Assembly (NCBI RefSeq): GCF_902459745.1
Contig: NZ_CABPSJ010000002.1
Span: 310,001 to 374,000 of the forward strand
Direction of reading: 5' to 3'
Origin: Pandoraea communis
GTDB taxonomy: Bacteria > Pseudomonadota > Gammaproteobacteria > Burkholderiales > Burkholderiaceae
Length of the DNA: 64,000 bases
Under the pieces are notes generated by a model, which worked only from the letters and a program-made list of their open reading frames with translations, had not been told where the DNA came from and did not search any database. Shown piece by piece: positions 1 through 14,655 of this stretch. Both the position numbers and the translations under genes were made by a program. The number at the start of each line of letters is the position of its first letter. Positions within the stretch are counted from its first letter, which is position 1.

Positions 1-294
1 CAACACGAATGCCAGCAACACCCCCGGCGCGATGAGCAACGTGTAGAACATCGGATCGGGTTTGACACCCGCGCGCTCGAAGAAGAACTCCCACGGCAAC
101 GACTTGCGGCGCGGCGCCCGGGAAGCGGCCCCTTCGCCGGCGGAAAATCGCGGCGCGTTATTCGCGAGCTGCTGCTCGAGAAACGCGCTCGTCGCCTGAT
201 CTCTCACGCGCTTTTGCGTGCGGCGCCACAGTTCCAGCCCTGCCGCGATCAGCAGCAGAGCGATGCAGATGACCCACAGCACGACGGGATTCAT
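1..294 (-). CDS. tadB: TadB inner-membrane platform protein of the Tad/Flp pilus (partial, runs off left edge)
   Basis: Reading leftward from the ATG at 294 gives 98 codons with no stop before the window edge. The protein begins with one hydrophobic helix (about residues 2-20) followed by a basic stretch and, near residue 70, the segment PWEFFFERAGVKPDP, after which a second membrane helix starts. This matches the N-terminus of TadB, the polytopic platform protein that works with the TadA ATPase to assemble Flp pili. The start overlaps the stop of the ATPase gene by four bases (ATGA), a sign of translational coupling. TadC and the remaining tad genes are expected to the left but cannot be seen. 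Confidence 0.88.
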   Translation of the reverse strand, partial: MNPVVLWVICIALLLIAAGLELWRRTQKRVRDQATSAFLEQQLANNAPRFSAGEGAASRAPRRKSLPWEFFFERAGVKPDPMFYTLLIAPGVLLAFVL

Positions 295-1658
295 CGCCGG
301 CGTCCGAAGAAGCCGCCACCGCCCGAATCCGGCGGCGTATTGCTCTGAGATTGCGCTGCGGCTGCCGCATTGCGCGTTTGCTCTTTGTAGCGCTGCAATT
401 TCGGCGAGTGCGGCTGGATACCGAGCGAGATCCAGCGGTCCTTCTCTTCGCCATCGGGCCCAACGACCGATTCGTGGCGGTACAGCTCCTGCGTGGAGAT
501 CACCGTGTCCGACACGCCGGTGACTTCGGTAATAGACAGAATGCGCCGGCGCCCGCTCGACAGACGACCGATCTGCACGATGAAATCGAGCGCGCTGGTG
601 ATCTGCCGGCGCAGGCTGCTTTCGCTGCCCTGGAACCCGGCAAAGCCCGCCAGCATTTCGAGACGATAAAGACATTCGCGCGGCGAATTGGCGTGAATCG
701 TCGCCATCGATCCTTCGTGGCCCGTATTCATGGCCTGCATCATTTCCAGCACTTCCGAGCCGCGCACTTCGCCCACGATGATCCGGTCGGGACGCATCCG
801 CAAGCTGTTGCGAATCAGATCGCGAATCGTCACTTCGCCCGATCCGTCGAAGCCGCCCTGACGCGACTCGAGCCGCACCACGTGCGGGTGATTGAGCGAC
901 AACTCGGCCGTGTCTTCGACCGTCACGACGCGCTCGATCGCCGGAATGAAGCTGGCCAGTGCATTGAGCAGCGATGTCTTGCCCGAGCTGGTACCGCCTG
1001 ACACGAGAATGTTGCAACGCGAGCGCACCGCCGCGTCGAGCAGACCGTAAATCTCTTCGTTGAAGCTGCCCAGCGCGAGCAGGTCGGAAGGCTTGAGCGG
1101 GTCTTTGCGGAACTTGCGAATCGAGACGACTGGCCCGTCCACCGCCAACGGTTCGATGACGACATTGAGACGCCCGCCGTCGGGCAGACGCGCATCGACC
1201 ATCGGGTTCGACTCGTCGAGACGACGGCCGATAGGCGCGAGAATGCGGCGCACGATGCGCAGCAGATGCTGGTTGTCCGAGAAGCGCAACGCTTCGCGCG
1301 CCAGCACGCCGTGGCGCGAAACATAGACGTCGTTGTAGCCGTTGATCAGAATGTCTTCCACCGCCGGGTCTGCGAGCAGATCTTCGATGGGGCCGAAACC
1401 GGCGAGTTCTTTCGTGAGCGCATCGGATATCTGGCGTAGTTCCGATTCGTTGATCGGAATACGGCGCAAACGCACGAAGCCGTCCATCTCCAGATCGACA
1501 AACTGCTGGATCGCGCTGCGACTCCAACGCCCGAATTCGGCGCCGAGTTCCTCGATCCGCGCAAGCAGATGTTCGTGCGCAGCGGTCTTGATGTCCTGAA
1601 ATTGCTGCGAATTGGCAAACGCACGCTTGTCGTCGGCAAATTCAATGGAGTCGGTCAT
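291..1658 (-). CDS. tadA: TadA/CpaF pilus-assembly secretion ATPase
   Basis: A 455-residue type II/IV secretion ATPase of the CpaF/TadA family, the cytoplasmic motor for Flp pilus assembly. The Walker A motif GGTSSGKTS lies at about residues 221-229 and the Walker B-like RIIVGEVRG at about 292-300; an N-terminal region of about 100 residues precedes the ATPase core, as is normal. The ATG at 1658 is chosen because the reading frame further upstream would run into tadZ; it starts one base after the tadZ stop. The frame can be extended 38 codons further, but that part is tadZ sequence. The gene overlaps tadB by four bases. Length and motifs are complete for the family. Confidence 0.95.
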
Positions 1659-1659
1659 A

Positions 1660-3000
1660 TCAGTGCTTTCCGATGATTCGGCCCAGCCAGCCCGAGGACT
1701 GACGCTGCGCTGCGGCCCTGGCGTGTTGCGCCAAGAGCAACCGTTCGACGAGCGGCTGCAACGCGCGCACATACGGGTCGCCGCGCGCGGTATCGAGAAT
1801 CAGTTTTCCCTGGTTGGTCGCCGAGAGCATCGCCAGCGGGCGATCGGGCAACGTGGCGAGCAGCGGCACATCGAAGCGCTTGGCGATCTGGTCGGCGGCC
1901 ATGCCGTAACGCGGATCGTAGCGGTTGAGTACCAAGTGCAGATGATCGCGCTCGACACTCTTCTCTTCGAGATCACGCAGCAGCGAGGCGAGCGAGACAA
2001 TCGCGCCCACACTCTGATCGACCACGAGCCAGACTTCGTCGGCCGCGCGCACGAGACTCGCCACGAATGCCGGATTCGAAAAGCCGCCGAGATCGGCCAC
2101 GATCAGATCGAAGAACGCGCGCAAACGGTCGGTCAGCGCGAGTGCGTCGGCAGCCGCCACGCTGCGCATGTCGCCGAGATCGAGCGGCAGCGGCAGTACG
2201 GCCAGACCGCTCGACGCGTGCGAGACGGCAGTGTGCACGAGGGTCTCGTCAAATCGCCGCAGGTTCTGCACCGCCTCGGCGAAACTGAACTGGCTCTGCG
2301 TATTGAGATACAGCATGCCATCGCCCGCGGGCAACCCAAGATCGAGCAACGCGACATGACCGAGCAGCGACGCATCGAACTTGTCGTCCTTGTGGTTCGC
2401 TGCCTTCGCCGCTTTGGCGGTCCTCTCCGGATGCCCCCCCACCGACAGTTCCTGACCGAGCTGCGACACGTGTGCGGCGAGCGTGCTGCATCCGACACCG
2501 ATTCGCGCGCCAAGGAGCACCACGAAACGGCCGTGCCGTTGAGGTGACGCAACGTTGACCGTGGGCGTCTGTTCGACGACCCGGCGGATGACCTCGAGCG
2601 CCTCTTCGTGCGTCGAATGCATGTCGATGAAATCGTGCACCCCGGCGCGAATGGCCGCTTTCATGCCGTCGGCGCGCACCATCGAACCCACGGCCACCAG
2701 CGGCAGTTTGGGTGCCACGCGCTTGAGCATGTGTGCGAGTTCGGTAGCCGCGGCAATGCCCCCGTCAGGGCTATCGCCGGTGTGCTCCGTCGGCTCTCCG
2801 GAGAAATCGAGCAGCACGACCTGCGGGTCGAGATCGCCGATGCGTTGCTGCAATTGCGCCGGACGGTCGGCCTCCTGGAGCACGACGCCCTCTTCGCTCA
2901 GCGCCGCCGAGAGCCACTGACCGTGGCCGGCATGCGCACTGCAAAAAAGGAAGCGATGCAACTCTGTCATGGTGTCCAGTATTCGCGTCGGTGCGTTCAT
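1660..3000 (-). CDS. tadZ: TadZ/CpaE pilus-localisation ATPase
   Basis: A 446-residue protein with a receiver-like N-terminal domain (VVLLDFSG, Asp at about 65) and a C-terminal MinD/ParA-like ATPase domain starting near residue 155. The P-loop reads GARIGVGCST (about 164-173): it keeps the glycines and the final Ser-Thr but lacks the lysines of the canonical deviant Walker A motif, a divergence known in TadZ/CpaE proteins, which place the Tad machine at the pole. The start at 3000 is supported by an AAGGAG seven bases upstream. It lies between the secretin and tadA genes in the usual tad order. Confidence 0.92.
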   Translation of the reverse strand: MNAPTRILDTMTELHRFLFCSAHAGHGQWLSAALSEEGVVLQEADRPAQLQQRIGDLDPQVVLLDFSGEPTEHTGDSPDGGIAAATELAHMLKRVAPKLPLVAVGSMVRADGMKAAIRAGVHDFIDMHSTHEEALEVIRRVVEQTPTVNVASPQRHGRFVVLLGARIGVGCSTLAAHVSQLGQELSVGGHPERTAKAAKAANHKDDKFDASLLGHVALLDLGLPAGDGMLYLNTQSQFSFAEAVQNLRRFDETLVHTAVSHASSGLAVLPLPLDLGDMRSVAAADALALTDRLRAFFDLIVADLGGFSNPAFVASLVRAADEVWLVVDQSVGAIVSLASLLRDLEEKSVERDHLHLVLNRYDPRYGMAADQIAKRFDVPLLATLPDRPLAMLSATNQGKLILDTARGDPYVRALQPLVERLLLAQHARAAAQRQSSGWLGRIIGKH

Positions 3001-3074: not shown

Positions 3075-4514
3075 CTACTTCGAAAAACCCGGCAATTCGC
3101 TGTCGCTTGCCACGCCCATCAGGTAAGCCCCCCAGACCGGTCCCGGACGGCGCTCGCGCGTATCGCCCGGCAGCGGTATGTCCGCCCCACGGGCCACGGG
3201 TTTCACCAGATGCGGTGTGACGACGATGACCAGCTCCTTCTCGGCGCTGCTGTACTTCAGATTGCGGAAAAACGCACCGATGAGCGGCAGATCGCCGAGC
3301 AGCGGCACCTTGTCGACCGCAGACGTCGTCGTACGTGAGATCAGGCCACCGATGATGAAGCTCTCGCCATCGCCCAGTTCGACGGTCGTGTCCGCGCGAC
3401 GTGTGGTGATCGCGGGAATCTGTGTCGAGTCGGTCACGATGGCGTTCGTAAAGTCGATGTCCGACGCTTCGGGCGCCACTTTCAGTGCAATGCGGTTCGG
3501 CGAGAGAATCGTCGGCGTCACGGTCAAGCCCACCCCGAACGGCTTGTAGACGATCGTGGTCGTGCCGAGGCCGCCCGACTGGGGCACCGGGATCTCGCCA
3601 CCGGCGAGAAAGCTCGCGCTCTGCCCCGAGAGGGCCACCAGCGTCGGTGCGGCAAGCACCCGGCCGAGGCCGTTCGATTGCAACAGATCGATCTCGGCCG
3701 ACATGCTGAATGCGCCCCGGGTGATCGAGCCGAAGAACGAACCGAAGTTCGCCACGCCGCTCGATCCGTTGGTGCCCCCGAACGCGGAGCTGAGCGCCGA
3801 GGTCACGCCAAAGCTGCCCGAGCCCGTCTTCTTCGACGCACTGAAGCTCGCCCCCAATTGATTGAGGATGTTGCGATTGATTTCGACGATCTTCACGTCG
3901 ACCTGCACCACCCCCGTATCTCCGACCGTCGAGCGGTCAACGACGACGCCACCTTTACCTGTGGCATCGACCGCCGCCGATTGCAACCCGCTATGTTCGA
4001 TGATGGTGTTCGCATGGCCCTTGATGAGCGCCGCGTTGCCGCGCGCGTCGACAGTGGCGCTGCCGGTGTCGCCCAACACACTCTGAAGATCGCCCGTCAC
4101 ATGGACTTCCCAGCGCACCGGGTCGCCGCCGCGCGGCCACGCAGCGACCTGCGTGATGCCGGCCTTCTTGCCCACGACCAGCACCGAGCCGCGCCGTCCG
4201 CCCGTGCCCTTGAGCACAACGATGTCGGCGATGGCCGGATCCGCCACGGCGACGCGCTCGAGCGATCCCGGCACTTGCAGTTCGCGCTGCTCGTGAACGC
4301 CCAGCGTCAGCGAGCGCGCCCCGGCGCTCGAGACGGGATCGGCCGCGTCGGCCAGACGCGCCGCTACCGTGGCGCCGCACACGATGAGCACGGCAAAGCA
4401 CAACAGCATTCCCGTGACCCGTCTGGTCTCTCGTCTGGCAGTGCGAACCTGGCTTCTGATCATGGCGTGGCTGTATCGGTCACTGTGTCGGTTATATGGC
4501 GTAGCGTTTCCCAT
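3075..4514 (-). CDS. rcpA: RcpA/CpaC outer-membrane secretin of the Tad pilus
   Basis: A 479-residue secretin-family protein. After an N-terminal hydrophobic export signal (about residues 36-58) comes a pilus-secretin N-domain (SLTLGVHEQRELQVPGSL), then a BON-like region, and from about residue 280 the secretin C-domain with VPLLGDLPLIGAFFRN near the end. It forms the outer-membrane channel through which the Flp pilus leaves the cell. The start is uncertain: the ATG at 4514 and an internal ATG at 4463 both lack a convincing ribosome site. The gene follows rcpC after 41 bases and precedes tadZ by 74, so it is probably one transcript. Confidence 0.93.
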   Translation of the reverse strand: MGNATPYNRHSDRYSHAMIRSQVRTARRETRRVTGMLLCFAVLIVCGATVAARLADAADPVSSAGARSLTLGVHEQRELQVPGSLERVAVADPAIADIVVLKGTGGRRGSVLVVGKKAGITQVAAWPRGGDPVRWEVHVTGDLQSVLGDTGSATVDARGNAALIKGHANTIIEHSGLQSAAVDATGKGGVVVDRSTVGDTGVVQVDVKIVEINRNILNQLGASFSASKKTGSGSFGVTSALSSAFGGTNGSSGVANFGSFFGSITRGAFSMSAEIDLLQSNGLGRVLAAPTLVALSGQSASFLAGGEIPVPQSGGLGTTTIVYKPFGVGLTVTPTILSPNRIALKVAPEASDIDFTNAIVTDSTQIPAITTRRADTTVELGDGESFIIGGLISRTTTSAVDKVPLLGDLPLIGAFFRNLKYSSAEKELVIVVTPHLVKPVARGADIPLPGDTRERRPGPVWGAYLMGVASDSELPGFSK

Positions 4515-4555: not shown

Positions 4556-5575
4556 TCAATAAGACGCCGTGGTGCGCTCCGCGCCGCGCACGACCTCGAT
4601 CGTGCCGCCACCGCCACTTCGGCCCGGTGCGCGAGGTGCGGCCGCTGTCCGGCGCACCGGTTCCCCGGCGAGCCCTGTCGTGGCAATTCCCGCGTAGGCC
4701 CGGTTCTCTGGCGTATCGAGCGCCGCCTTGTCGTCACCCTTCAGCCCAGACTTCCCTGCGAGCACCGGCGGTGGCGACGGGAACAGCGACGTGTCGGGCG
4801 TGGCATCGTCGCCCGGATTGCGCAGTGCCAGCATGATCTTGCCTTGCTGTGTGCCCAGTACCACACGGTTGACGTCGGCCACCGGCACGGCCACGACCGC
4901 AGCGGTCGCCGGCATGGGCGGCTGAGTATTCCCGGCCGGTGCAGGCTGCGGTGGCGGCGTGGTCGTCGCGGCCTGTACGGTAGACACCACGCTCGGCGCG
5001 GCGGGTGGCGGCGTTACATCGTCGAGCGATGCGTTGCCGTAGCTCAGCACCCGCACGCGAGACGCCAGCAGACGCGACTGTGTATCGTCGATCAGCCCCC
5101 CGGGCGTTCCTGCCGGTTGCGTGGTCTTCATGGTGAAGAAGACGTCCACGTAGTCGCCCGGACGGATGCGGTGACCGACACCGACGGTTTCGGTCACCGG
5201 AATGGCCACGGCACGCTCGCCGGTTGCGAGCTGCAACGCCAGGCCGCGGGCGAGCGTGTTTTGCGTGACAGGCACACCGGCTGCGAGGGCAACGAGCGGC
5301 ACCCGTCCCACGACGTCGGCCGGGTTCGTGAAGGCGCCCACCGTCTGGCTATCGAACTGTTCGAGCTTCACGCCGTCTGCGCCGATGGGTTGGCCCGGCG
5401 AAAGCGACTTGGCCGCCACCACGGCCGGATAACGCTGCGTGAGCGTCTGTGTCACCGGTGACGGTGCCGTGGCCGGCGCCGGTGCGTTAGTCGTCCCGAG
5501 GCGCAGCGCAAAGAGCGCCAGCAGCACGCCGGCAACAACCAGCACAGCAGCAATAATCTTGGTGGCTTTGTTCAT
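4556..5575 (-). CDS. rcpC: RcpC/CpaB Flp pilus assembly protein (SAF domain)
   Basis: A 339-residue protein with an N-terminal membrane anchor (about residues 6-26), then an SAF-type domain (VAAKSLSPGQPIGADGV, about 53-69) and the conserved stretch ERAVAIPVTETVGVGHRIRPGDYVDVFF around residues 120-147. This is the CpaB/RcpC family, periplasmic accessory proteins thought to link the secretin to the cell wall. A Pro- and Ala-rich linker occupies about residues 190-230. It lies just upstream of the secretin gene in transcription, the standard pairing in tad loci. The C-terminal tail is Gly/Arg-rich and poorly conserved in character. Confidence 0.92.
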   Translation of the reverse strand: MNKATKIIAAVLVVAGVLLALFALRLGTTNAPAPATAPSPVTQTLTQRYPAVVAAKSLSPGQPIGADGVKLEQFDSQTVGAFTNPADVVGRVPLVALAAGVPVTQNTLARGLALQLATGERAVAIPVTETVGVGHRIRPGDYVDVFFTMKTTQPAGTPGGLIDDTQSRLLASRVRVLSYGNASLDDVTPPPAAPSVVSTVQAATTTPPPQPAPAGNTQPPMPATAAVVAVPVADVNRVVLGTQQGKIMLALRNPGDDATPDTSLFPSPPPVLAGKSGLKGDDKAALDTPENRAYAGIATTGLAGEPVRRTAAAPRAPGRSGGGGTIEVVRGAERTTASY

Positions 5576-5703: not shown

Positions 5704-6180
5704 TCAACTCCCGCCCAGCGTAGACGTATCCAGCGTGATGGCTGCGGTACCCACAATGTTCTGCGGCACCAGGTTAGTCAGCCCAGGCCAACTGACAGTC
5801 ATCGGCTGCGTCAACGTCAACGTAACGCGTACGATGCATTGCGAACTGCTGTTGGTGGCCGACGCCGGGCATGGCGCACTCGCGTCCGACGCGAAACTGG
5901 CGGTCACGACCGATGCCGACGGCCAGGTCAGCGTGCTGTTGATCGCCTGCGTGGCGTAGGCCTGACGCTGCGACATCGTGCCGGCGCGCAGCATCGCCCG
6001 GCCGGCCTCGGAGGCCGCCTGGGTGAGCATCTGTCGGGCAAGGATATTGATGGAGAACGAGACGGCGACATAAAACGCGGGCAGCAGAATCATCAGGATG
6101 AGCATGAATTCCAGTGCAGCGACGCCGCGCGAGTTCGCGCATCGCAGCCTTGCTCCTGCCTGTGCCCCAGACCATTTCAT
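5704..6180 (-). CDS. TadE-like pseudopilin
   Basis: A 158-residue protein with a TadE-type N-terminus: a short basic leader, then G-VAALEF (cleavage expected after Gly19, Glu24-Phe25) and a hydrophobic helix. TadE/TadF pseudopilins are processed by the same prepilin peptidase as Flp and are needed for pilus assembly. The ATG at 6180 is chosen over a longer frame because a GGGGAG lies seven bases upstream. It sits between the peptidase gene (192 bases upstream in transcription) and rcpC (128 bases downstream). The C-terminal part has no motif I recognise. TadE and TadF cannot be told apart from the sequence alone. Confidence 0.82.
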   Translation of the reverse strand: MKWSGAQAGARLRCANSRGVAALEFMLILMILLPAFYVAVSFSINILARQMLTQAASEAGRAMLRAGTMSQRQAYATQAINSTLTWPSASVVTASFASDASAPCPASATNSSSQCIVRVTLTLTQPMTVSWPGLTNLVPQNIVGTAAITLDTSTLGGS

Positions 6181-6372
6181 GACGACACTCCCCGTCGCGC
6201 ACGGCACTCTGTGGCCGTGTTTGGCGACGCATTGGTACAACCCATTTGCGCGGCGTCGCCCGCGCCTCCCGTTTTGCGGTGCTGCCTGAAGCAACACTCG
6301 TCACCTCTGCGCTTCTTTACCTCTTGTTCCACGCGGCTCACGCCCTGCTCTGCCGCGCCGCACCTCCTGCGC

Positions 6373-6852
6373 TCACCTCACCACCAGCGCCGCTGCGGCC
6401 AGATACGCCCCATAGGGCAATCCGATACGCCCGGCCCGCCAGTGCAAAACCCGTTGCCAGACACGCGAGGCGCTCAGCGCGTCGCACCCATGTGCCAGCC
6501 ACTTCAACCGTCCCGTCAACAGCACCAGCGCATGTACGCCAGCGGCGACACTGGCCAGACACCACACCGGCAGCAGCGCCGGATAACCCGCCACCAGACC
6601 GATCAACGCAAAGAGTTTGACGTCGCCGCCTCCCATTACGCCGCGCCACCAGAAAGGTAGCAATACGATCAATCCCAGAAGGGCACCCAATCCGTGCACC
6701 CACAACACCCGAGGCTCGCCATGCCATGCCCGCCACGCAATCCAGACCAGTGCCAATGCCCCCACACACAGTAGCCAGACATTCGGAATACGACGTGCAA
6801 TCAGGTCGGTGATCACAATTGGCACGCATAACAACCACAACAGCATCAGCAC
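6373..6852 (-). CDS. tadV: TadV/CpaA prepilin peptidase (A24 family)
   Basis: A 159-residue polytopic membrane protein with the two aspartates of A24 prepilin peptidases: Asp16 in TDLIARRIPN and Asp77 in GGGDVKLF. It lacks the N-terminal methylase domain of PilD, as expected for the short TadV/CpaA type. It cleaves the leaders of the two Flp prepilins and the TadE-like pseudopilin. It starts 13 bases after the first Flp gene, so it is probably co-transcribed with the prepilins. About five hydrophobic segments fill the sequence. Confidence 0.92.
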   Translation of the reverse strand: MLMLLWLLCVPIVITDLIARRIPNVWLLCVGALALVWIAWRAWHGEPRVLWVHGLGALLGLIVLLPFWWRGVMGGGDVKLFALIGLVAGYPALLPVWCLASVAAGVHALVLLTGRLKWLAHGCDALSASRVWQRVLHWRAGRIGLPYGAYLAAAALVVR

Positions 6853-6865
6853 AGCGTATCTCGCA

Positions 6866-7075
6866 TCAATGAGAGGCAGCCGACGTGGCCGCCGACGTCA
6901 CCGTGCTGAAGGCGCTTGACAACACGTCGGTGAGATTCGTGAACACCGTTGTGCCAATCACCACTGCCACGATGGCGGCCAGAATGCCGTACTCAAGCGC
7001 CGTGACACCGCTTTGCCGCGACAGTCTGCGCTGCCGCCCGGCCCCGCCTGCTTGCCTGCCCCGCATGATTCGCAT
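6866..7075 (-). CDS. flp: Flp-type prepilin (copy 1)
   Basis: A 69-residue Flp prepilin: a 23-residue basic leader ends in Gly, followed by VTALEYGILAAIVAVVIG, the classic Flp motif with Glu28-Tyr29 and a hydrophobic assembly helix. The C-terminus is Ser/Ala/Thr-rich. The start at 7075 is preceded by GAGGG seven bases upstream; the longer frame reaching 7183 has no such support. It lies directly before the prepilin peptidase and after a second Flp gene with an almost identical helix but a different leader and tail, so the two arose by duplication. Confidence 0.92.
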   Translation of the reverse strand: MRIMRGRQAGGAGRQRRLSRQSGVTALEYGILAAIVAVVIGTTVFTNLTDVLSSAFSTVTSAATSAASH

Positions 7076-7235
7076 GATTCGCCCTCGCGAATACAGCCTT
7101 TCATCGCGCTGAATGACGCCGTCAACCGAACGGTGTCCTTCCCTATATCGCCAGCGTGTCTCTGGGTTGCATGCACATTGCATGCTGGCACTTGTTACTG
7201 CTGACTGGCTTCATACGGCCCGCAAGACAAACGCG

Positions 7236-7421
7236 TCAGCCACCCGCGGATGTCACCGCCGACGACAACTTCGAGAAGATCTGACTGAACGTCGTAGTCA
7301 GGCTGCCGTAGACCGTGCCGCCGATCACCACCGCTACGATTGCGGCGAGGATGCCGTACTCCAGTGCCGTCACGCCTCGCTCGTCGCGTGCAAATAGTCG
7401 AAAACGCTTGCTGAGTTTCAT
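7236..7421 (-). CDS. flp: Flp-type prepilin (copy 2, first gene of the tad operon)
   Basis: A 61-residue Flp prepilin with a 16-residue leader ending ARDERG and the mature N-terminus VTALEYGILAAIVAVVIGG (Glu21-Tyr22). The ATG at 7421 follows a GAGGG ribosome site. It is the most upstream tad gene on the minus strand, so the operon promoter should lie in the 850-base region to its right. Of the two prepilins, its short leader and position make it the better candidate for the major pilin, which is an inference. Confidence 0.92.
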   Translation of the reverse strand: MKLSKRFRLFARDERGVTALEYGILAAIVAVVIGGTVYGSLTTTFSQIFSKLSSAVTSAGG

Positions 7422-7998
7422 ATCACCCTCCCTCAAATAGGTGCCAGGCGCCCGCTGGCATGCATGACGAGAAGTCACCGGCCTTGCGGTCGTGTGGCAT
7501 TGGCTCGCCATTTCGCTTATTAACTCTTGACTTCGGCCTCGGGTTCACTGCGCCATAAGGCTTGCGAACCTCATTTATGTTGCACGCCAACATTTCTTTA
7601 CTTGTTGGAACAGCCTTTGCTGCGGCGTGCTATTTTTTTCGATGCTAATTTAATCTAAAACACAAAAAATAGAGCATTACTTCCAATCACCCTCAAAAAC
7701 GCAATAAAGCGTTACTCAGGTTGCCCAAACAATACTCCAAAACCAGGTAATGCAACCCTCATGAGGGAAAACCATGATTATTGCAGCACCACACACCTCA
7801 AGGCGACAGCTACCCATACGCGCAGCACCTATTTAAATAACTATTCATTCATTGCGCGTCTGATCCGGAAAAAGCCAAGCGTCGCGCGCTACTACTTCCA
7901 ATTACGGCGCGCGCATCGTTTTCTCCGCTCGGGTATTACCCGAATCGCTCACACCCCATCATATTCACCACCTTCCAAAGTCAATTTCGCCAGTGGCG

Positions 7999-8031
7999 TT
8001 ACGTAACGTTCTCCGTAACACACCCCGTAAC
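7999..8031 (+). promoter_or_regulatory. Candidate activator-binding array: three CGTAAC repeats, 12-base period
   Basis: CGTAAC occurs at 8002-8007, 8014-8019 and 8026-8031, exactly 12 bases apart; the first copy is part of the perfect palindrome GTTACGTAAC. The array ends about 180 bases upstream of the sigma-54 promoter, a normal distance for an enhancer bound by an AAA+ activator. The repeats are seen directly; their role is inferred. Confidence 0.45.
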
Positions 8032-8066
8032 GGGAACAGCAATTCACCTGAAATTCGCTGTTTCCC
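8032..8066. repeat. Near-perfect inverted repeat upstream of the sigma-54 promoter
   Basis: The arm GGGAACAGCAATT is mirrored by AATTCGCTGTTTCCC around a short CACCTGA centre, with one bulge and one wobble. It directly abuts the CGTAAC array. It could be an operator or part of the same enhancer, and it lacks a T-tract that would make it a terminator. Confidence 0.4.
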
Positions 8067-8213
8067 GATGGCGTTAACCCTGCCCCACCTTCTTCGGACG
8101 ACCACCGATCTCTCGATCAAAAAGATTCTTGTTTTCTGAAACGCAAATAAATACAGGCTTTCAGCCAATTACCCAGAAAACTAGAAGGCTTATTCAAACC
8201 TGAATTCAGAGAT

Positions 8214-8228
8214 TGGCACAGCTCTTGC
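8214..8228 (+). promoter_or_regulatory. Sigma-54 (RpoN) promoter
   Basis: TGGCAC AGCTC TTGC matches the RpoN consensus TGGCAC-N5-TTGC in all ten conserved positions, with the invariant GG and GC ten bases apart. It points right and lies 44 bases before the ATG at 8272, so it should drive the small gene at 8272 and at least the first lipoprotein gene. Sigma-54 promoters need an ATP-dependent activator bound upstream; none is encoded in the window. Confidence 0.8.
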
Positions 8229-8271
8229 GGATATCCCTGCATCGCAACGCTAAAGATCGCCGGGGGACACC

Positions 8272-8580
8272 ATGATCATTGGCAATACAAAACAAACGAT
8301 GCAGCCCGCAGCCGAGCGGCAACGCATCGCGGCGATGCAGCGCAGCGCTGCTGCCGAAAACGATCGTAGAGGCGCAAGCCCAGGGAGGGGCGGTGCAGAA
8401 GGCGGTGGCGTACGCGCCACCGCCACACCGACCGACGCAGCCAACGCTCGCAGCACCGGCAACACGAATTCGGCCCAGGCGATGACGGGCCCCGATAGCG
8501 CAGTGGTCAACGCGCTCCTGTTCGCACTCATCGCACAACGCATGAACGCCCGACTGGCCGCGCAAGACGCGCTCGTCTGA
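8272..8580 (+). CDS. Small hypothetical protein, first gene after the sigma-54 promoter
   Basis: A 102-residue protein with a good ribosome site (GGGGGACACC before the ATG). The N-terminal half is hydrophilic and rich in Gln, Arg and Ala; the middle is Gly/Thr/Asn-rich low complexity; the last 25 residues (NALLFALIAQRMNARLAAQ) could form an amphipathic helix. There is no signal peptide and no recognised family. It ends 31 bases before the first repeat-lipoprotein gene and is probably its operon partner. Function unknown. Confidence 0.72.
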   Translation: MIIGNTKQTMQPAAERQRIAAMQRSAAAENDRRGASPGRGGAEGGGVRATATPTDAANARSTGNTNSAQAMTGPDSAVVNALLFALIAQRMNARLAAQDALV

Positions 8581-8611
8581 ATACCAAATAGACCAGATAG
8601 AGGACACCACC

Positions 8612-10195
8612 ATGAACAACTTCCAACGCAACCTTCTCGCTTCCGCCTGCCTTCTCGCCGTCATTACGATGACCGGTTGCGCCAGCTCCGGCTCGGGTGG
8701 CACCAGCGGCTCTCTCGGGGATGGGGGTGGCACCACCGCTGGCACCACCGCTGGCTCCGGCGGTGGCGGCGGCACGGGCGCCGGCACTGTCCCCGACGGT
8801 TCGGGGACCGGCGGCAACGGTAGCGGCGGCGGGAATGGAAACGGCAATGGCAATGGCAACGGAAATGGGGATGGCGGCACGGGCGTTGCGACCAACCCAA
8901 TCGGCACCGTCGCCGGTACGGCCAGCACGGGGGTCGTGACGCAAGTCGGCAAGACCGTCAGCAGCGTTGGCACGACGCTCGCCGGCACCCAACTGCCGCT
9001 GCTCAGTTCGCAAACACAAAGTGGTCTGGCGGGTGCCGTTGTCTCCACCGGCAACGCCGTACAAACGCTCGGCAACGGCCTGTCCGACGGTCTGGGCAAG
9101 CTCGGTTCGGTAAAGGACCCGCTCAATCCGACGCTCGCCAGCGTAGGCGGTGTGGTCTCGAACCTCGGCACGGCCGGCACGCAACTGGGCAGCGCCGTCG
9201 CAGGCCTCGGCCAGACGGGGCCGCTGGGTAACACGCCGGTCAACGGCGTTACCACGCTGCTCGGCGGCGTCGTGACGTCGGTCGGCAAGGCAGGTGAAGC
9301 CCTCGGCGGCGGACTGACGCAAACCATCACGAGCGGTCCGGTGCAACAACTGACGTCGGCGCTCTCGTCGGCCATCAACCCGATCACGAACGTTGTGACC
9401 AACACCACGCAAACGCTTGGCAACGCCACGGGTGCCGGTACGCCTGTCGCAGGTTTGCTGGCTCAGGTCGGCGGGGGTCTGGCAGGTGTCGGCACCAAGA
9501 TCGGCGGTCAGTTCAACAACCCGATCGCGGCTAACGTCGGCGGCATCGTCGCGGGGGTCGGCAACACGGTGGCCAGCCTTGGCGGCGTCGTTCACGGCAC
9601 CCCGACGAGCGCCAACCCGCTCGCCCCGCTCACCTCGGCCCTGAGTGGCCTTGGTGGTCTCGGTGGCGGCACCGGCTCAAGCCCGCTCGCCCCAGTCACG
9701 AACCTGTTGTCGGGCCTGACGGGCGCGCTCGGTGGTGCCACCGGCGGTGCCCCGGGCAGCAACCCGCTCGCCCCGGTCACGAACCTCGTCGCCGGGCTGA
9801 CGGGGGGCCTCGGCGGCGCCGCTGGCGGAGCCTCGGGCAGCAACCCTCTCGCCCCGGTCACGAACCTCGTCGCCGGTTTGACAGGCGGCCTCGGCGGTGC
9901 CGTTGGCGGTGCCTCGGGCAACAACCCGCTCGCCCCGGTCACGAACCTCGTCGCCGGTTTGACGGGCGGCCTCGCTGGCTCGCTTCCGGCAGGTGCAGGC
10001 GCTTCGGCAAGCGCCGGTGGCACGTCGGCGGGTGCGGGCGGCTCGGCCTCGGGTGGCGTACTCGCACCGGTCACCTCGCTGCTCGGCGCCGTGACGGGTG
10101 CGGTCGGCGGCGCCACGGGTTCGGGCAGCAGCAACGGCGGCCCGCTCGCACCAGTGACCGGCCTGCTTGGCGGGCTGCTCGGCGCAAAGAAGTAA
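8612..10195 (+). CDS. Gly-rich repeat lipoprotein 1 (paralogue family of three)
   Basis: A 527-residue predicted lipoprotein: a signal peptide ends in MTGC with the lipid-accepting Cys23. Next comes a Gly/Ser/Thr spacer with an Asn-Gly run (NGNGNGNGNGD, near residues 75-85), a core of about 220 residues rich in Gly, Val, Leu and Thr that is shared with the two paralogues downstream, and then four tandem units of 26-27 residues built on LAPVTNLVAGLTGGLGG. The mature part has no further Cys and essentially no aromatic residues. Such composition suggests a repetitive beta structure or an extended surface/matrix protein. It is not a strict Gly-X-Y collagen. It is preceded by AGAGGA and lies just downstream of the sigma-54 promoter. 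Confidence 0.85.
   Translation: MNNFQRNLLASACLLAVITMTGCASSGSGGTSGSLGDGGGTTAGTTAGSGGGGGTGAGTVPDGSGTGGNGSGGGNGNGNGNGNGNGDGGTGVATNPIGTVAGTASTGVVTQVGKTVSSVGTTLAGTQLPLLSSQTQSGLAGAVVSTGNAVQTLGNGLSDGLGKLGSVKDPLNPTLASVGGVVSNLGTAGTQLGSAVAGLGQTGPLGNTPVNGVTTLLGGVVTSVGKAGEALGGGLTQTITSGPVQQLTSALSSAINPITNVVTNTTQTLGNATGAGTPVAGLLAQVGGGLAGVGTKIGGQFNNPIAANVGGIVAGVGNTVASLGGVVHGTPTSANPLAPLTSALSGLGGLGGGTGSSPLAPVTNLLSGLTGALGGATGGAPGSNPLAPVTNLVAGLTGGLGGAAGGASGSNPLAPVTNLVAGLTGGLGGAVGGASGNNPLAPVTNLVAGLTGGLAGSLPAGAGASASAGGTSAGAGGSASGGVLAPVTSLLGAVTGAVGGATGSGSSNGGPLAPVTGLLGGLLGAKK
9680..9990 (+). repeat. Tandem 78/81-base repeats inside lipoprotein gene 1
   Basis: Units start at 9680, 9758, 9839 and 9920, so the periods are 78, 81 and 81 bases; the last three units are very similar at the DNA level. 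Each encodes NPLAPVTNLVAGLTGGLGG plus a Gly/Ala/Ser linker. All periods are multiples of three, so copy number can change without breaking the frame. Confidence 0.85.
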
Positions 10196-10464
10196 GCCGG
10201 GGCCCAAGACCCGACGACGTCATCCAGATGGCCGCTCGATCATGACCCGCGCGATTCCTCCGCCCGTCTGCGACCGCCGCGATCCGGCCCTCGCCCCGAT
10301 GCCCACGCATCGGGCCAGGCAAGTCCGGCTCCGGCGCACCCCACACGCCGCGCTCACACAATGGCATCACAGCGAGCGGCCCCGGTTCCTCAAGTGGAAG
10401 TCACCACCTCACCGCGCGACACGTCGCCGGCAAACATTCAGAACGATCAAGGGAGATAGCCATC

Positions 10465-11646
10465 ATGTCCAACGCACTTCAACGCACCCTCCTGGCCTCG
10501 GCCGCCATCGGCGTCATCGCCCTCACCGCCTGCTCCAGCGGCGGTGGCGGCAGCGGCGCTACCTCGACCGGTGTCACGGGTACCCCAAACGCAGTCGGCA
10601 CAACGGCGAGCGGCGCAGGCGGCGTCGTGAGCTCCGCAGGTAACATCGTCAGCGCCTTGGGCGATCAGGTCGCCAACACCCAACTGCCGCTCGTCTCGCA
10701 GCAAGCCTCGCAAGGCTTCGGTGGTGCACTCTCGAATACCGGCAAAGCCGTCACCGACCTCGGCAATGGTGTGAGCAATGGCCTCGGTCAATCGGGCACC
10801 TCCGCTGACTCGGTGGGCATCACGCTCGCCAGCACCGGCAACGTTGTCACCGATCTGGGTCAGGCGGGTGTGTCGTTGGGCAGCGGTGTCGCCGGAATCG
10901 GCAAGAGCGGCCCGCTCGCCGGCACCCCGGTCGATACGCTCACCGGTGCACTCGGCAACGTCGTCGGTACCGTCGGTCAAGGCGGCATCGCCGGCGGTGC
11001 GATTTTGAAACAGGCCTTCTCGGGCGGCCCGGTGACGCAGGTCACTTCCACCCTCTCGGCCGCCGTCAATCCAATCACCAATGTGCTGTCGGACACCACG
11101 CGCACCGTGGGTAACACCACGGGCCTCGGCGGTCCAGTGCAGAACCTGCTGACGGTACTGGGCGGCACGGTCAACACCGTCGGTTCGACGATCAAGGGCA
11201 CGTCGCCGAATCCAGTCGTCGGCGCACTGGGTAACACGGTGATCGCCACTGGCAACACGGTCTCCGGCCTCGGTGGCTTCGCGAATGGTCAGACATCCAC
11301 TGGCTCGTCGAATCCGTTCGGCTCGCTGCTCGGCAATCTCGGCACGACCACGGCAGGTGGCGGGGGCAGCGCGTCGAACCCGCTCGGCTCGGTCACGGGC
11401 CTGCTCGGCGGACTTGGCGGCTCGGGCGGCGGCAGCCCGCTGGCCCCCGTCACGGGCCTGCTCGGCGGTCTGAGCGGCGGCAGCGCATCGGGCGGCAGCA
11501 GCAGCCCGCTGGCTCCCGTCACGAACCTGCTCTCGGGGGTGACGGGCGCAGCCGGCGGCAGCTCGGGGGGTGCGGCCGGCGGTCTCGGCTCTCTGCTTGC
11601 GCCAGTCACCGGCCTGCTCGGCAGTGTGGCGAGCGTCGGCAAGTAA
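10465..11646 (+). CDS. Gly-rich repeat lipoprotein 2
   Basis: A 393-residue lipoprotein with lipobox LTAC (Cys23), a short Gly/Ser linker and then the shared core: an opening stretch like VSALGDQVANTQLPLVSQQA, followed by repeated NTGKAVTDLGNGVSNGLGQ-type segments. The C-terminal third carries shorter repeats (SPLAPVTGLLGG, variable linkers). No Trp, Tyr or His is seen. The ribosome site AAGGGAG precedes the ATG by nine bases. A 269-base gap separates it from lipoprotein 1; no clear terminator or promoter is visible there, so read-through from the sigma-54 promoter is possible but unproven. Confidence 0.84.
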   Translation: MSNALQRTLLASAAIGVIALTACSSGGGGSGATSTGVTGTPNAVGTTASGAGGVVSSAGNIVSALGDQVANTQLPLVSQQASQGFGGALSNTGKAVTDLGNGVSNGLGQSGTSADSVGITLASTGNVVTDLGQAGVSLGSGVAGIGKSGPLAGTPVDTLTGALGNVVGTVGQGGIAGGAILKQAFSGGPVTQVTSTLSAAVNPITNVLSDTTRTVGNTTGLGGPVQNLLTVLGGTVNTVGSTIKGTSPNPVVGALGNTVIATGNTVSGLGGFANGQTSTGSSNPFGSLLGNLGTTTAGGGGSASNPLGSVTGLLGGLGGSGGGSPLAPVTGLLGGLSGGSASGGSSSPLAPVTNLLSGVTGAAGGSSGGAAGGLGSLLAPVTGLLGSVASVGK

Positions 11647-11713
11647 TCGCCCGCCCAACGTTGCATTGCGCGCTGCGCGCATGCACCACCCGAGTCATCG
11701 ATAAGGAGATGCC

Positions 11714-12445
11714 ATGGCCCGCTTCATTCCCGACACCGGCGTTCTAATGCGCGGTCATGGCGAATCCGCCCCGCAAATTTCCGAACCCGTGGCAGTGCGC
11801 GAAACCGGCGACGGTTTCGCGAATGGCCACAGCCATCACACGTACGGCACCGAGTCGAGTGCCGCCTCCGGGGCGACGTCGACTGCCTCCCCGCTCAACG
11901 CAACGCACGGCACCATGAGCGATCGACATACGAACCGAAACGAACTTGTCGCCGGCATCGTCCGCTCGCTCGGACGCCGGCTCGCCGTGTACACCGCGCT
12001 CTATCACTCGGCGCTTGCCGAACAGCTCGGCCTGAACGTCACCGATCTGAACGCCCTCGATCTGATTCTCGAACTCGAATCGATCACTGCCGGCCAACTC
12101 GCCGAACTCATGGGTGTGAGTTCCGGCGGCATTACCACGGTCATCGACCGGCTCGAACGTGCAGGCTTTGTCGAGCGTGAGAAAAATCCGCACGATCGCC
12201 GCATGGTGATGATTCACCCCATCGAAGCGCGTTGTGCGCAGATCGAGCAGTTCCTGTCCTCGGTGTCGCGTGAGCTCACCGCAGTGAGTGCCGCGTACGA
12301 CCACAGCGAACTCGCCGCGATTCACGATTTCCTGGTGCAGAGCATCCGCACCCTGAAGAGCGAAACCTTCCGTCTTCGTTTCGAGGCCGATCAGGACATC
12401 GCCGGTCTTGTCTCGAACAGCCGGGGCGCGTCGACCAAGGTCTGA
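11714..12445 (+). CDS. MarR-family transcriptional regulator with a long N-terminal extension
   Basis: A 243-residue protein whose residues from about 70 onward are a MarR winged helix: ITAGQLAELMGVSSGGITTV is the recognition-helix region and DRLERAGFVEREKNPHDRR the wing. The first 67 residues are Ser/Gly/His-rich and have no counterpart in ordinary MarR proteins of about 150 residues; the long form is nevertheless supported by AAGGAG five bases before the ATG at 11714, while the internal Met68 has no ribosome site. It lies between lipoprotein genes 2 and 3 with gaps of 67 and 33 bases, so it is probably co-transcribed and may regulate the cluster. Ligand unknown. Confidence 0.88.
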   Translation: MARFIPDTGVLMRGHGESAPQISEPVAVRETGDGFANGHSHHTYGTESSAASGATSTASPLNATHGTMSDRHTNRNELVAGIVRSLGRRLAVYTALYHSALAEQLGLNVTDLNALDLILELESITAGQLAELMGVSSGGITTVIDRLERAGFVEREKNPHDRRMVMIHPIEARCAQIEQFLSSVSRELTAVSAAYDHSELAAIHDFLVQSIRTLKSETFRLRFEADQDIAGLVSNSRGASTKV

Positions 12446-12478
12446 GCGCGCGGCAGTGCCTTAACGAGGAGAAACGTC

Positions 12479-13723
12479 ATGTCGAAGATTCTGCGCCCCA
12501 CGTTGCTTGCTGCGATGGCGGCGGGCATCGTCAGTGTTACCGGCTGCTCCAGCTCGGGAGGCGGCAGCGGGGCCACGGCCAACACCCCGGCCAACCCCGC
12601 GAACCCGACGAATCCGAACTCGCCGGCCAATCCTACGAATCCGACGACTCCGGCGACCACCAGCAATGGTGTGGCCGCCTCGGTCGGCTCGGTGGTCAGT
12701 GCCATCGGCAATCAGGTCTCGGGCACGACGATTCCCGGGGTGTCGCCGCAGGCCACACAAGGCTTCGGCGGCGCGCTCACGCAAACCGGCAACGCCGTCA
12801 CGGATCTGGGTACCGGTATCGGCAACGGGCTCGGTCAACTCGGTAAGTCCGGCACCGATCCGGTCGGCATCACGCTCGCGAGTACGGGCGGTGTGGTGTC
12901 CGATCTCGGCAAAGCCGGGGTATCGCTGGGCGGCGGCGTCGCCAGTATCGGCAAGAGCGGCCCGCTTGCCAACACGCCCGCCGATACGCTCACTGGTGTG
13001 CTCGGTACCGCCGTCGCCACCGTCGGTCAGGGGGGTGTGCAAGGTGGCGCGGCGCTCACTCAAGCCCTCACCAGTGCCCCCGTCGTGCAAGCGACAACGG
13101 CGCTTTCGTCGGCGATCTCGCCGATTACCAATACGGTGGTAACGACGACGCAGACAGTCGGCAACACCACCGGTCTCGGCGCGCCTGTCGCCGGCCTGCT
13201 CGGCACGCTGGGCGGGGCATTGAACTCGGTGGGCACCCAGGTCAAGGACGCAGCACCGAACGCCGTCGTCGCAAGCCTCGGCACCCCCCTCGCGGCGCTA
13301 GGCAACACTGTGACGAGTGCCGGCGGGCTGCTCTCCGGCGCGACCGGCACCGCGAATCCGAATGCGCTTGGCAACGTGCTCGCCAACATCGGCAATACCA
13401 CCGCGACGCCCACGACGGCGAGCGGCGGCAATCCGTTGGGCAGCGTCACCGGCTTGCTCGGTGGACTCACGAGTGCGACAGGCTCGTCCGGCAGCAATCC
13501 GCTCGGCGCAGTGACTGGCCTGCTGGGTGGCGTGACGAACACCGCGGGCGGCGGCAGCGGCGGCGCGGGTAATGCGCTGGCGCCGGTCACCACCCTGCTG
13601 AGCACCGTCACCGCCCCCTTGACGACGCTGGCCAGCGCGAGCGGCGGTGGCGCGGGCGGCGCAGGTGGCCTGCTCGCACCCGTGACAGGTTTGCTGGGGG
13701 GACTCGGCGGACTCGGCAGGTAA
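12479..13723 (+). CDS. Gly-rich repeat lipoprotein 3
   Basis: A 414-residue lipoprotein with lipobox VTGC (Cys23, the same position as both paralogues). An Asn-Pro-Thr/Ala linker (ANPTNPNSPANPTNPTTP) replaces the Gly-rich linker of the others, a feature of spacer regions that hold a domain off the membrane. The shared core follows (about residues 65-290) and then Gly-rich LLGGL-type repeats. The ribosome site GAGGAG lies seven bases before the ATG. A rho-independent terminator follows at 13802-13835. The core is most similar to that of lipoprotein 2. Confidence 0.84.
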   Translation: MSKILRPTLLAAMAAGIVSVTGCSSSGGGSGATANTPANPANPTNPNSPANPTNPTTPATTSNGVAASVGSVVSAIGNQVSGTTIPGVSPQATQGFGGALTQTGNAVTDLGTGIGNGLGQLGKSGTDPVGITLASTGGVVSDLGKAGVSLGGGVASIGKSGPLANTPADTLTGVLGTAVATVGQGGVQGGAALTQALTSAPVVQATTALSSAISPITNTVVTTTQTVGNTTGLGAPVAGLLGTLGGALNSVGTQVKDAAPNAVVASLGTPLAALGNTVTSAGGLLSGATGTANPNALGNVLANIGNTTATPTTASGGNPLGSVTGLLGGLTSATGSSGSNPLGAVTGLLGGVTNTAGGGSGGAGNALAPVTTLLSTVTAPLTTLASASGGGAGGAGGLLAPVTGLLGGLGGLGR

Positions 13724-13896: not shown

Positions 13897-13934
13897 TAAA
13901 AAAACCCGGACTGCATCGCGTCCGGGGTTTTGTA
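13897..13934. terminator. Bidirectional terminator between convergent units
   Basis: CCCGGAC (13905-13911) pairs with GTCCGGG (13920-13926). A seven-base A-tract on the left gives a T-tract for minus-strand transcripts from the DUF2147 genes; GTTTTG on the right serves the plus strand. Confidence 0.75.
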
Positions 13935-13984: not shown

Positions 13985-14467
13985 TCATTGATCGCGGATC
14001 CACGTCTGCGTGCGACCGATCAACGAGATGCCGATGAAGCCGCGAACATCGAGCTTCTTGCCACCGTCGACCACGGTCATCTTGCAGTTGTACTCTTTGC
14101 CGTTTTCCGGATCGAGAATCTTGCCGCCGCCGTACGTGTCGCCGTCTTTACGCACGCCGCGAATGATCTGCATGCCGAGCATCTTCTGGCCCTTGCGTGC
14201 GTCGGTGCAGGCCGAGCACACGCGCTCCGGATCATCGCTTTCGCCGAGCCCCTTGGTGATGGTGCCGACGTATTCGCCATCCTTCTCCGAAATCGTCACG
14301 AGGGCTTTCGGCTTGCCGGTATTGTCGTCGATGGTCTTCCATACGCCGATCGGCGATGCATCGTCGCCCGCCATTGCCGCTTTGGCCACACCCCCCAACA
14401 GCGCCACTGCGACGAGCGCGTGAGCACCCAGACGTCGCCACGACGTCGCGTTAGAAATCTGCTTCAT
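13985..14467 (-). CDS. DUF2147 secreted protein (copy 1)
   Basis: A 160-residue protein with a cleavable-looking signal peptide (about residues 1-32, ending AAMA) and a DUF2147 domain: PIGVWKTIDDNTGKPKALV at the start, then ISEKDGEYVGTI and GRTQTWIRDQ at the end. DUF2147 proteins are periplasmic lipocalin-like proteins of unknown role. A CSAC pair (CSACTD) suggests a disulfide. The ATG at 14467 is chosen because GGGAGG lies upstream; longer starts have no site. It is a tandem paralogue of the next gene, roughly 60 percent identical by eye. Confidence 0.88.
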   Translation of the reverse strand: MKQISNATSWRRLGAHALVAVALLGGVAKAAMAGDDASPIGVWKTIDDNTGKPKALVTISEKDGEYVGTITKGLGESDDPERVCSACTDARKGQKMLGMQIIRGVRKDGDTYGGGKILDPENGKEYNCKMTVVDGGKKLDVRGFIGISLIGRTQTWIRDQ

Positions 14468-14655
14468 GGTTGTCATCCTCCCGGATACGGAATTGATTGT
14501 CGTAGGACTCGCGATAGCCGCCATTGCCACCCGGCCGCATGCGCGAGTCGCTTTGAAGATTACGCCAAAGGCGTGACGCCGTGCTGAGGAAGTCCTCTAG
14601 CCGAGAAGCGCTCCGTTCCTCTGATCGATGCCGACAATTGCGCCGGGAGGCAACG

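Follow-up and report, generated by a model that had tools for sequence, protein, structure and literature searches.

Introduction

The closest described counterpart of the locus reported here is the flp cluster of Burkholderia cenocepacia, which is composed of two putative operons, BCAL1525-1537 and BCAL1524-1520 (PMC2753556; this and the other published accounts cited are drawn on through selected passages). BCAL1520, BCAL1523 and BCAL1524 are induced together with the flp genes on contact with host membrane vesicles (PMC7970998). Lipoproteins of the PF15984 family beside flp were described in the Burkholderia cepacia complex (Bcc) and proposed as a new class of adhesins, with five members in strain J2315 (PMC10224339). 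BCAL1524 was detected in vesicles of the outer membrane; it promotes auto-aggregation and plays a part in a wax-moth model (PMC10303873). BCAL1536 is a predicted RpoN (sigma-54) enhancer-binding protein, the mutant of which is attenuated (PMC5295037); it was named GtrR and works with RpfR under the Burkholderia diffusible signal factor (BDSF) and cyclic di-GMP (c-di-GMP) (PMC9684580, PMC12838280). Three further papers on RpoN or flp are silent on these lipoproteins in the passages found (PMC5491218, PMC5552954, PMC5234846). Here, we describe a related locus of Pandoraea communis, located in a 64,000-nucleotide stretch of contig NZ_CABPSJ010000002.1 (positions 310,001 to 374,000; hereafter the window), in which genes for three lipoproteins (CLP1, CLP2 and CLP3) stand back to back with a Flp/Tad pilus operon.

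The cluster lies on the plus strand, divergent from the Flp/Tad operon, and comprises in order an RpoN site, a 102-aa open reading frame (ORF), CLP1, CLP2, a MarR-type gene and CLP3. It resembles the Bcc pair BCAL1524/BCAL1523 in the core family, in the lipoprotein nature of the products and in the divergence from the flp operon. In contrast to the Bcc locus, it carries three copies, a small protein that is specific to the genus and a MarR-type gene, and its lipoproteins contain few GXX' repeats. The corresponding pair in B. cenocepacia NCTC13227 (L282) is 557 and 474 aa long, compared with 558 and 475 aa for the published BCAL1524 and BCAL1523, and the matched core is 40% identical to the window core. 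Its first lipoprotein gene, encoding the 557-aa protein, has TGGCACGACAGTTGC 78 bp before the start, with four of the half-sites described below.

The first-pass annotation of the window recognized the small protein and the lipoprotein trio, overlooked the MarR-type gene and knew of no described function for such a trio. The last statement does not hold, given the account of the Bcc proteins (PMC10224339); the lipoproteins belong to a known family and are not undescribed. What appears to be new is the switch that they share, a combination of an RpoN promoter and an activator array that is unreported in the passages surveyed; Lardi et al., 2015 and Yang et al., 2017 lie outside this survey and priority is uncertain. 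The cluster probably constitutes one RpoN-dependent unit of surface lipoproteins that accompanies the Tad pilus, is driven by the GtrR-like activator encoded in the Tad operon and acts in aggregation.

A conserved RpoN site and an upstream half-site array

The RpoN promoter proposed in the first-pass annotation is an exact match to TGGCAC-N5-TTGC (TGGCACAGCTCTTGC), the sole one in the window. The base that follows is G, and the stricter ...TTGCW form is absent. The P. communis genome contains 24 exact sites compared with 17 for a reversed control pattern; such hexamers alone therefore prove little, and conservation decides. The site is present with zero or one mismatch in 27/27 usable Pandoraea loci, the window included (23 exact; L113 and L115 are cut by contig ends and were excluded), with a conserved GG-N10-GC core within TGGCAC/TTGC. 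Of the 25 loci that have the small ORF, 24 show a distance of 58–61 bp from the start of the site to the ORF, and the 25th, L107, has an altered start. In other genera, exact sites were observed in L116, L120, L122 and L125, and sites with one mismatch in L124 and L126.

Approximately 180 bp upstream of the RpoN site, a block of CGTWACG-type half-sites, CGTTACGTAACG ... CCGTAAC ... CCCGTAACGGG (window 7997-8035), is nearly invariant amid variable surroundings. In other genera the half-sites lie about 130–190 bp upstream of the RpoN site (about 130–140 bp in L116, L120, L122, L124, L125 and L126), and the spacers differ while the elements stay. Their positions relative to the RpoN site are fixed at -187, -172, -153 and -148 in L240, L246, L261, L275 and L278, and at -174, -160, -141 and -136 in L279 to L283. 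These distances lie within the range of about 100–200 bp taken for an upstream activator site, and the conserved half-sites are candidates for activator binding. Where two lipoprotein genes stand back to back (L117, L118, L119 and L121; 4/4), there are two RpoN sites with zero or one mismatch, one for each gene, and the half-sites lie between them.

With a spacing of 160–190 bp, the two-part pattern has a single match in the P. communis genome, at the window locus, and with a spacing of 118–148 bp it has no match in this genome. Across the genus, 26/32 genomes match, 24 of them at the window-type locus, with five other places in four genomes. We also scored 78 named loci with 148 PF15984 genes from Pandoraea, Burkholderia, Paraburkholderia, Cupriavidus, Ralstonia, Caballeronia, Trinickia and Pararobbsia; these were picked by similarity to CLP1, a choice biased towards linked copies. 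Scoring covered lead genes that have a lipobox start and no less than 300 bp of upstream sequence, 68 of them linked to tad and 11 without tad genes in the strip (one of the 11, in L239, is an internal gene of a cluster that the end of its contig truncates); seven more were left out, six without a recognizable start and one with short upstream sequence. An RpoN site with at most one mismatch and at least two half-sites 100–260 bp further up were present before 67/68 tad-linked lead genes, compared with 0/11 of the others, and the 68th (L292) has two mismatches. In dinucleotide shuffles the RpoN site alone occurred in 1.5% and both elements in 0/3400; the sequences are related and not independent, and these counts are not probabilities.

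The cis signature of RpoN site and half-site array is almost certainly a genuinely conserved element. Because the site and the enhancer-like array are both conserved across genera, RpoN control of the lipoprotein cluster is supported at the level of sequence. There is no support for RpoN control of the pilus operon, since the reverse-strand lists of the intervals scanned contain no RpoN site with fewer than two mismatches that points at flp. An RpoN-like site on the flp side, TGGAACAGCCTTTGC (7606-7620, plus strand), was not counted because it is not conserved in several members of the genus.

Two further conserved segments lie in the interval between flp and the lipoprotein genes. A strongly conserved A/T-rich block (window 8107-8170) between the half-sites and the RpoN site is perhaps a DNA-bending site. 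At window 7765-7836, a conserved GAGGGAAAACCATGATT that resembles a ribosome site precedes a 20-codon ORF, similar to the start of the small gene (8263-8281). The start of this ORF is kept in the genus alignment; the sequence beyond it is not.

The activator encoded in the Tad operon

The first-pass annotation supposed that an AAA+ activator switches on the cluster. The last gene of this Tad operon, at its 3´ end and next after TadG, encodes such a protein. It contains an AAA+ domain with GAFTGA and a Fis-type helix-turn-helix (HTH), and a Pfam search of its N-terminal part gave no match. It is very likely an orthologue of Burkholderia GtrR (BCAL1536), with which it shares the position in the flp operon, the length (464 compared with 463 aa), the AAA+ domain and the Fis-type HTH. 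The similarity to the Burkholderia-type orthologue L300 (G099) is full-length, with 61% identity. Counted from the first Met, L300 has 463 aa, the published length of GtrR, and its last five residues, TRESE, are those in which the GtrR cloning primer ends (PMC8174753); the link to GtrR is made through this length and these primer-derived end residues. The B. cenocepacia protein itself was compared through L300 only, and the passages covered do not name PF15984 genes as GtrR targets. Two primers from the same account, taken to mark a reported target promoter of GtrR and quorum sensing, bracket a fragment of approximately 0.5 kb before a leuA-like gene in B. cenocepacia NCTC13227, and this fragment has neither half-sites nor an RpoN site; the identity of this fragment is doubtful, and it counts neither way.

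With orthologues required to be 53% or more identical across no fewer than 390 aa, the activator is present in 58/58 PF15984-positive genomes among the 120 sampled from the family, and in 1/17 genomes that have RcpC without PF15984. At 51/52 picked RcpC places it is on the same contig, 9.6–12.6 kb away. There is a high probability that this Tad-encoded activator reads the half-site array.

The alternative that the RpoN promoter is real and the half-sites are bound by another activator or by the MarR-type protein of the cluster, with the Tad-operon activator serving other genes, is unlikely but is the best of the alternatives. The P. communis genome has ten strong RpoN-activator domains (15 matches in all), and an unlinked gene with the switch adjoins another activator-like gene (L167, discussed below). 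The cluster contains a MarR-type gene, and a MarR dimer would also fit the palindromic half-sites. However, the half-sites are kept in loci of other genera, where no MarR gene was found at that place in the 12 loci compared (two have a 34% match 5–6 kb off), they are located at the usual enhancer distance of about 130–190 bp upstream, and the Tad-operon activator tracks the PF15984 family. The GAFTGA loop contacts RpoN. The sole intact activator in a genome without PF15984 genes, that of G037 (L217, G037:C21), which does have a Tad locus, carries GALAGA at this loop, compared with GAFTGA or GSFTGA in the other activators read. As a reader of the half-sites, the MarR-type protein is ranked second to the Tad-operon activator.

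Activators of matrix genes of the FleQ/VpsR type are tied to c-di-GMP and the surface matrix. BerB is likewise an activator tied to c-di-GMP and the surface matrix (PMC9684580). The present activator differs from these in that it is encoded in the Tad operon and would control lipoproteins rather than exopolysaccharide.

Linkage of the lipoprotein genes to one type of Tad locus

The pilus operon, which had been called complete-looking, does stand back to back with the cluster, but it is complete only with genes outside the window. These encode a T2SSF (TadC-type) protein, a tetratricopeptide repeat (TadD-like) protein, a DUF3613 protein and TadG, followed by the RpoN activator; Pfam recognized no second T2SSF-type protein. 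Flp, prepilin peptidase, RcpC, secretin, TadZ, TadA, T2SSF and TadG together identify a Tad/Flp locus.

Linkage was counted from 150 listed PF15984 cores and 150 listed RcpC places, and the counts are lower bounds. Among these matches, at least 94/150 cores have a listed RcpC no more than 12 kb away, and at least 52/56 genomes have at least one such core. Three of the four exceptions, G000 (the P. communis genome), G016 and G031, are in fact linked (the window, L114 and L111), their weaker RcpC matches falling outside the 150 listed, and the fourth, G095, stops at a contig border. The tie of the paralogues to tad loci that the first-pass annotation assumed is thereby supported; the paralogues are not located mainly away from tad loci, which would have refuted it. 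The gene order is kept in most Pandoraea loci compared, and tad linkage extends across genera. In the reverse direction, a listed PF15984 core is nearby at only 52/150 of the listed RcpC places, and 17/75 RcpC-positive genomes have no PF15984; therefore, the lipoproteins are carried by one type of Tad locus. The P. communis genome has a second, different Tad locus (L219, G000:C1:98000-116000).

We fetched 40 PF15984 loci without a listed RcpC nearby, of which 39 were scored (L168 ends too early). L145 was set outside the unlinked group because Flp and prepilin-peptidase genes in its strip make it tad-linked; L140 begins near a contig end and was counted as unlinked, with its linkage open. Here the switch was scored as an RpoN site with at most two mismatches that starts 52–88 bp before the gene, accompanied by one or more half-sites within 300 bp upstream. 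Both elements were observed in 19/38 unlinked genes and neither in 19/38; no gene had one alone. Among the 20 switch-bearing loci of the 39 scored (L145 included), four have two RpoN mismatches, and L132 has a single half-site. About half of the scattered PF15984 copies thus share the putative switch in trans.

These counts bear on the possibility that the lipoproteins have no relation to the pilus and are envelope proteins kept adjacent to it by chance inheritance, which we consider improbable. Many PF15984 genes are away from tad (at most 56/150 listed), and half of the unlinked genes lack the RpoN/half-site element. Conversely, linkage persists in at least 52/56 genomes despite rearranged gene order, the other half of the unlinked copies has the promoter signature, and pilus and lipoprotein genes are co-induced in B. 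cenocepacia (PMC7970998).

The PF15984 lipoproteins

As the first-pass annotation proposed, the three proteins are paralogous lipoproteins with a common core. The cores of CLP1, CLP2 and CLP3, approximately 200 aa each, match PF15984 (Collagen_mid) with E values of 1.1e-52, 1.5e-44 and 6e-45 and scores of 179, 153 and 154 bits, compared with a curated cut-off of 31.1. Each protein has a signal peptide and a lipobox in which Cys23 is preceded by TG, TA and TG, respectively, as judged by eye and by pattern. The near-absence of aromatic residues is also borne out: F, W, Y and H total only 2, 4 and 1 in the mature chains, which contain 21–28% Gly. A PLAPVTGLLGG-like motif is located near the ends of the tails; close variants occur in several proteins of other genera, in which the preceding repeats are variable. 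The closest named relatives of the core are from Pandoraea species, with up to 95% identity. PF15984 is present in 29/32 genomes of the genus, mostly in three copies, and in 58/120 sampled genomes of the family, spanning 10/25 genera; all PF15984 genes of the P. communis genome (n=3) sit in the window cluster.

The structure prediction that the first-pass annotation suggested was run on the core from 52 sequences. It yielded only helices, with a mean predicted local distance difference test (pLDDT) score of 50, which is too low to support a fold search. Among solved structures, profile searching found a single weak match, to dicistrovirus VP4 (E 0.0018), which was judged to be chance.

The window proteins resemble Gly-X-Y (GXY) triple-helix collagen-like proteins in name and in Gly-rich composition only, and have no GXY domain. 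Because the GXY runs are short (5, 4 and 3 triplets at most), Gly amounts to 21–28% and the core is predicted at low confidence to be helical, the label 'Collagen' is a misnomer for these proteins. A reading of them as genuine collagen-like adhesins whose triple helices bind host matrix, for which the Pfam name, the collagen-like adhesins proposed in the Bcc (PMC10224339) and two Cupriavidus-type genes with half-sites and an RpoN site encoding lipoproteins with GXY runs might speak, is highly improbable in view of these short runs and the predicted all-helical core.

Proposed mechanism and points that weigh against it

When the Tad operon is expressed and the input signal permits, the activator would bind the half-sites; in B. 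cenocepacia this input is RpfR with BDSF and c-di-GMP. The bound activator would loop to the RpoN holoenzyme and turn on the lipoprotein genes. The lipoproteins would be exported, lipidated at Cys23 and placed on the outer membrane or on vesicles, and would promote cell-cell aggregation with or after pilus assembly. The co-transcribed MarR-type protein of the genus may be a local brake. We lean towards aggregation as the main output. The adhesive or biofilm role suggested in the first-pass annotation agrees with the auto-aggregation promoted by the relative BCAL1524, but not in its biofilm part.

Several points weigh against this mechanism. Its basis in P. communis is the sequence together with published relatives, from which we infer activator binding and lipoprotein function in this species. 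BCAL1524 had no biofilm effect under the conditions tested (PMC10303873), and the passages covered are silent on whether GtrR works through RpoN at the targets known for it. Of the 58 activator orthologues, two are unclean, with a partial sequence in G086 and an internal stop in G137. The co-occurrence of activator and lipoproteins is confounded, as both travel with the same Tad locus. All 12 activators read, that of P. communis among them, share one recognition helix, SRKVLWEKMRK (L302, taken in a wrong frame, was left out). Two of these 12 are the protein of G037, a genome that lacks PF15984, and an additional copy in G136, and the helix is therefore non-discriminating. In G013 (L216, G013:C10), the one case of loss in the genus examined, the lipoprotein genes, the pilus genes and part of the MarR gene are gone and the activator gene is in two pieces; since one deletion took lipoproteins and pilus genes together, this genome does not count as independent evidence. 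An exception on the other side is G045, where such a promoter is absent from a tad-linked PF15984 gene. In L167 (G041:C3), the unlinked PF15984 gene with the switch adjoins a different RpoN-activator-like gene (a stretch of 47% identity), and given this locus another activator may serve some copies. Finally, a looser family-wide pattern gave 132 rows compared with 66 for the reversed control, which is near background outside PF15984 genes; the 132 rows represent 111 distinct sites, of which 57 are within 2.5 kb of a listed PF15984 core.

The mechanism would provide a poorly understood family of surface lipoproteins with a candidate regulator, a binding site and a partner organelle, all directly testable. 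It suggests that GtrR, known in B. cenocepacia as a regulator of virulence tied to quorum sensing and c-di-GMP, was selected to run the coat that accompanies the pilus of its own operon. The conserved switch, its spread to unlinked copies and the matching activator of the Tad operon lift the observation from a local curiosity to a testable regulon.

Further candidate members of the regulon

Most pattern sites away from PF15984 must be chance. Of the 54 that are remote from listed cores, 43 are in PF15984-positive genomes and 11 in others. We fetched 14/54, chosen by the look of their half-sites, along with two places in the genus, and named the genes by the look of their sequence. Because about half of the genome-wide pattern is background, extra members are claimed only where at least three half-sites cluster. 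Sites before TetR-like, sugar-nucleotide dehydrogenase-like and transporter-like genes, and L208, were set aside.

In Cupriavidus-type genomes, the switch precedes two lipoproteins (L202 and L205) with genuine GXY runs and, close to their ends, PLAPV-type repeats, and clustered half-sites precede another lipoprotein (L203). Clustered half-sites with RpoN sites also precede stand-alone receiver-like proteins of 143–164 aa (L206, L207, L209, L210 and L214), possibly regulators added to the same regulon. In two genomes of the Pandoraea group, the switch precedes a secreted LAPVT-repeat protein (L312) and a secreted Ser/Thr/Gly-rich protein (L313), both without a PF15984 core; the N-terminal 110 residues of these two proteins gave nothing above the Pfam cut-off. 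L204, from a Cupriavidus-type genome and with three half-sites before a nucleotidyltransferase-like gene, is a misfit for a surface-protein regulon.

By a narrow margin, we favour a family-wide RpoN regulon in which the GtrR of the Tad operon drives dispersed surface proteins that accompany the pilus, in cis and in trans, and that have LAPVT-type C-terminal repeats, not a single core, in common. Its members would be the PF15984 lipoproteins, the Cupriavidus-type GXY collagen lipoproteins and, in one Pandoraea genome, the core-less secreted LAPVT protein. Expression of the pilus would thereby programme the cell coat, with input from quorum sensing and c-di-GMP. If three half-sites are required, the site pattern predicts regulon members in other Burkholderiaceae, some without a shared domain.

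Organization of the locus

The features of the locus are listed in Table 1. The small ORF is conserved at the coding level in the genus, its third codon positions changing more, and a family search with the 102-aa protein gave no match. Orthologues were found in 24 of the 40 loci compared (12 of the 40 are from other genera); among the Pandoraea loci, the ORF is undetected in the two most divergent, L088 and L095. Most Pandoraea loci compared keep the order flp <- / -> small ORF, CLP1, CLP2, MarR, CLP3, DUF2147, with the MarR-type gene at the equivalent position; CLP3 is undetected in L088, L095, L099 and L106. No sigma-70-like promoter was found between the CLP1 and CLP2 genes, and the lipoprotein transcript probably ends at the hairpin that closes the cluster.

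Table 1. Coordinates of the Tad operon, the lipoprotein cluster and their regulatory elements (window positions unless a contig is named)
Feature	Position	Strand	Remarks
TadA ATPase	291..1772	-	Tad operon continues beyond window
TadZ/CpaE	1660..3000	-	PF16968, E 2.8e-5, just below curated cut-off
RcpA-type secretin	3075..4514	-	PF00263
RcpC/CpaB	4556..5575	-	PF16976
TadE-like protein	5704..6297	-	PF07811
Prepilin peptidase (A24)	6373..6852	-	PF01478
Second Flp pilin	6866..7183	-	PF04964, E 3.6e-9
Flp pilin at head of Tad operon (divergent), start codon unsettled	7239..7511	-	PF04964, E 3.1e-11
Candidate upstream activating sequence, CGTWACG-type half-sites: CGTTACGTAACG ... CCGTAAC ... CCCGTAACG	7997..8032	+	conserved block in genus alignment
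RpoN (sigma-54) -24/-12 element TGGCAC-AGCTC-TTGC, TGGCACAGCTCTTGC	8214..8228	+	exact match to TGGCAC-N5-TTGC
Small conserved protein, 102 aa	8272..8580	+	DRRGASPGRGG motif and C-terminal ALLFALIAQRM stretch
Lipoprotein CLP1, 527 aa, Cys23, C-terminal LAPVT repeats	8612..10195	+	PF15984 core
Lipoprotein CLP2, 393 aa, Cys23, C-terminal LAPVT repeats	10465..11646	+	PF15984 core
MarR-type transcription regulator, 243 aa, between CLP2 and CLP3	11714..12445	+	PF01047, E 1.3e-15
Lipoprotein CLP3, 414 aa, Cys23, C-terminal LAPVT repeats	12479..13723	+	PF15984 core
Bidirectional intrinsic-terminator-like hairpin closing lipoprotein cluster	13905..13926	.	2 found vs 0.3 expected in shuffles
GtrR-like RpoN activator, 464 aa, next after TadG	G000:C2:302974-304365	-	PF00158, E 1.9e-63, and Fis-type HTH

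Downstream of the cluster, two adjacent genes (window 13985-15129), both similar to one DUF2147 protein, come after the cluster in many Pandoraea loci; DUF2147 genes also occur near lipoproteins in loci of other genera. At the far end of the window, the segment 42173-63951 has a third-position G+C below that of the rest and many short adjacent genes on one strand, and may be an integrated element.

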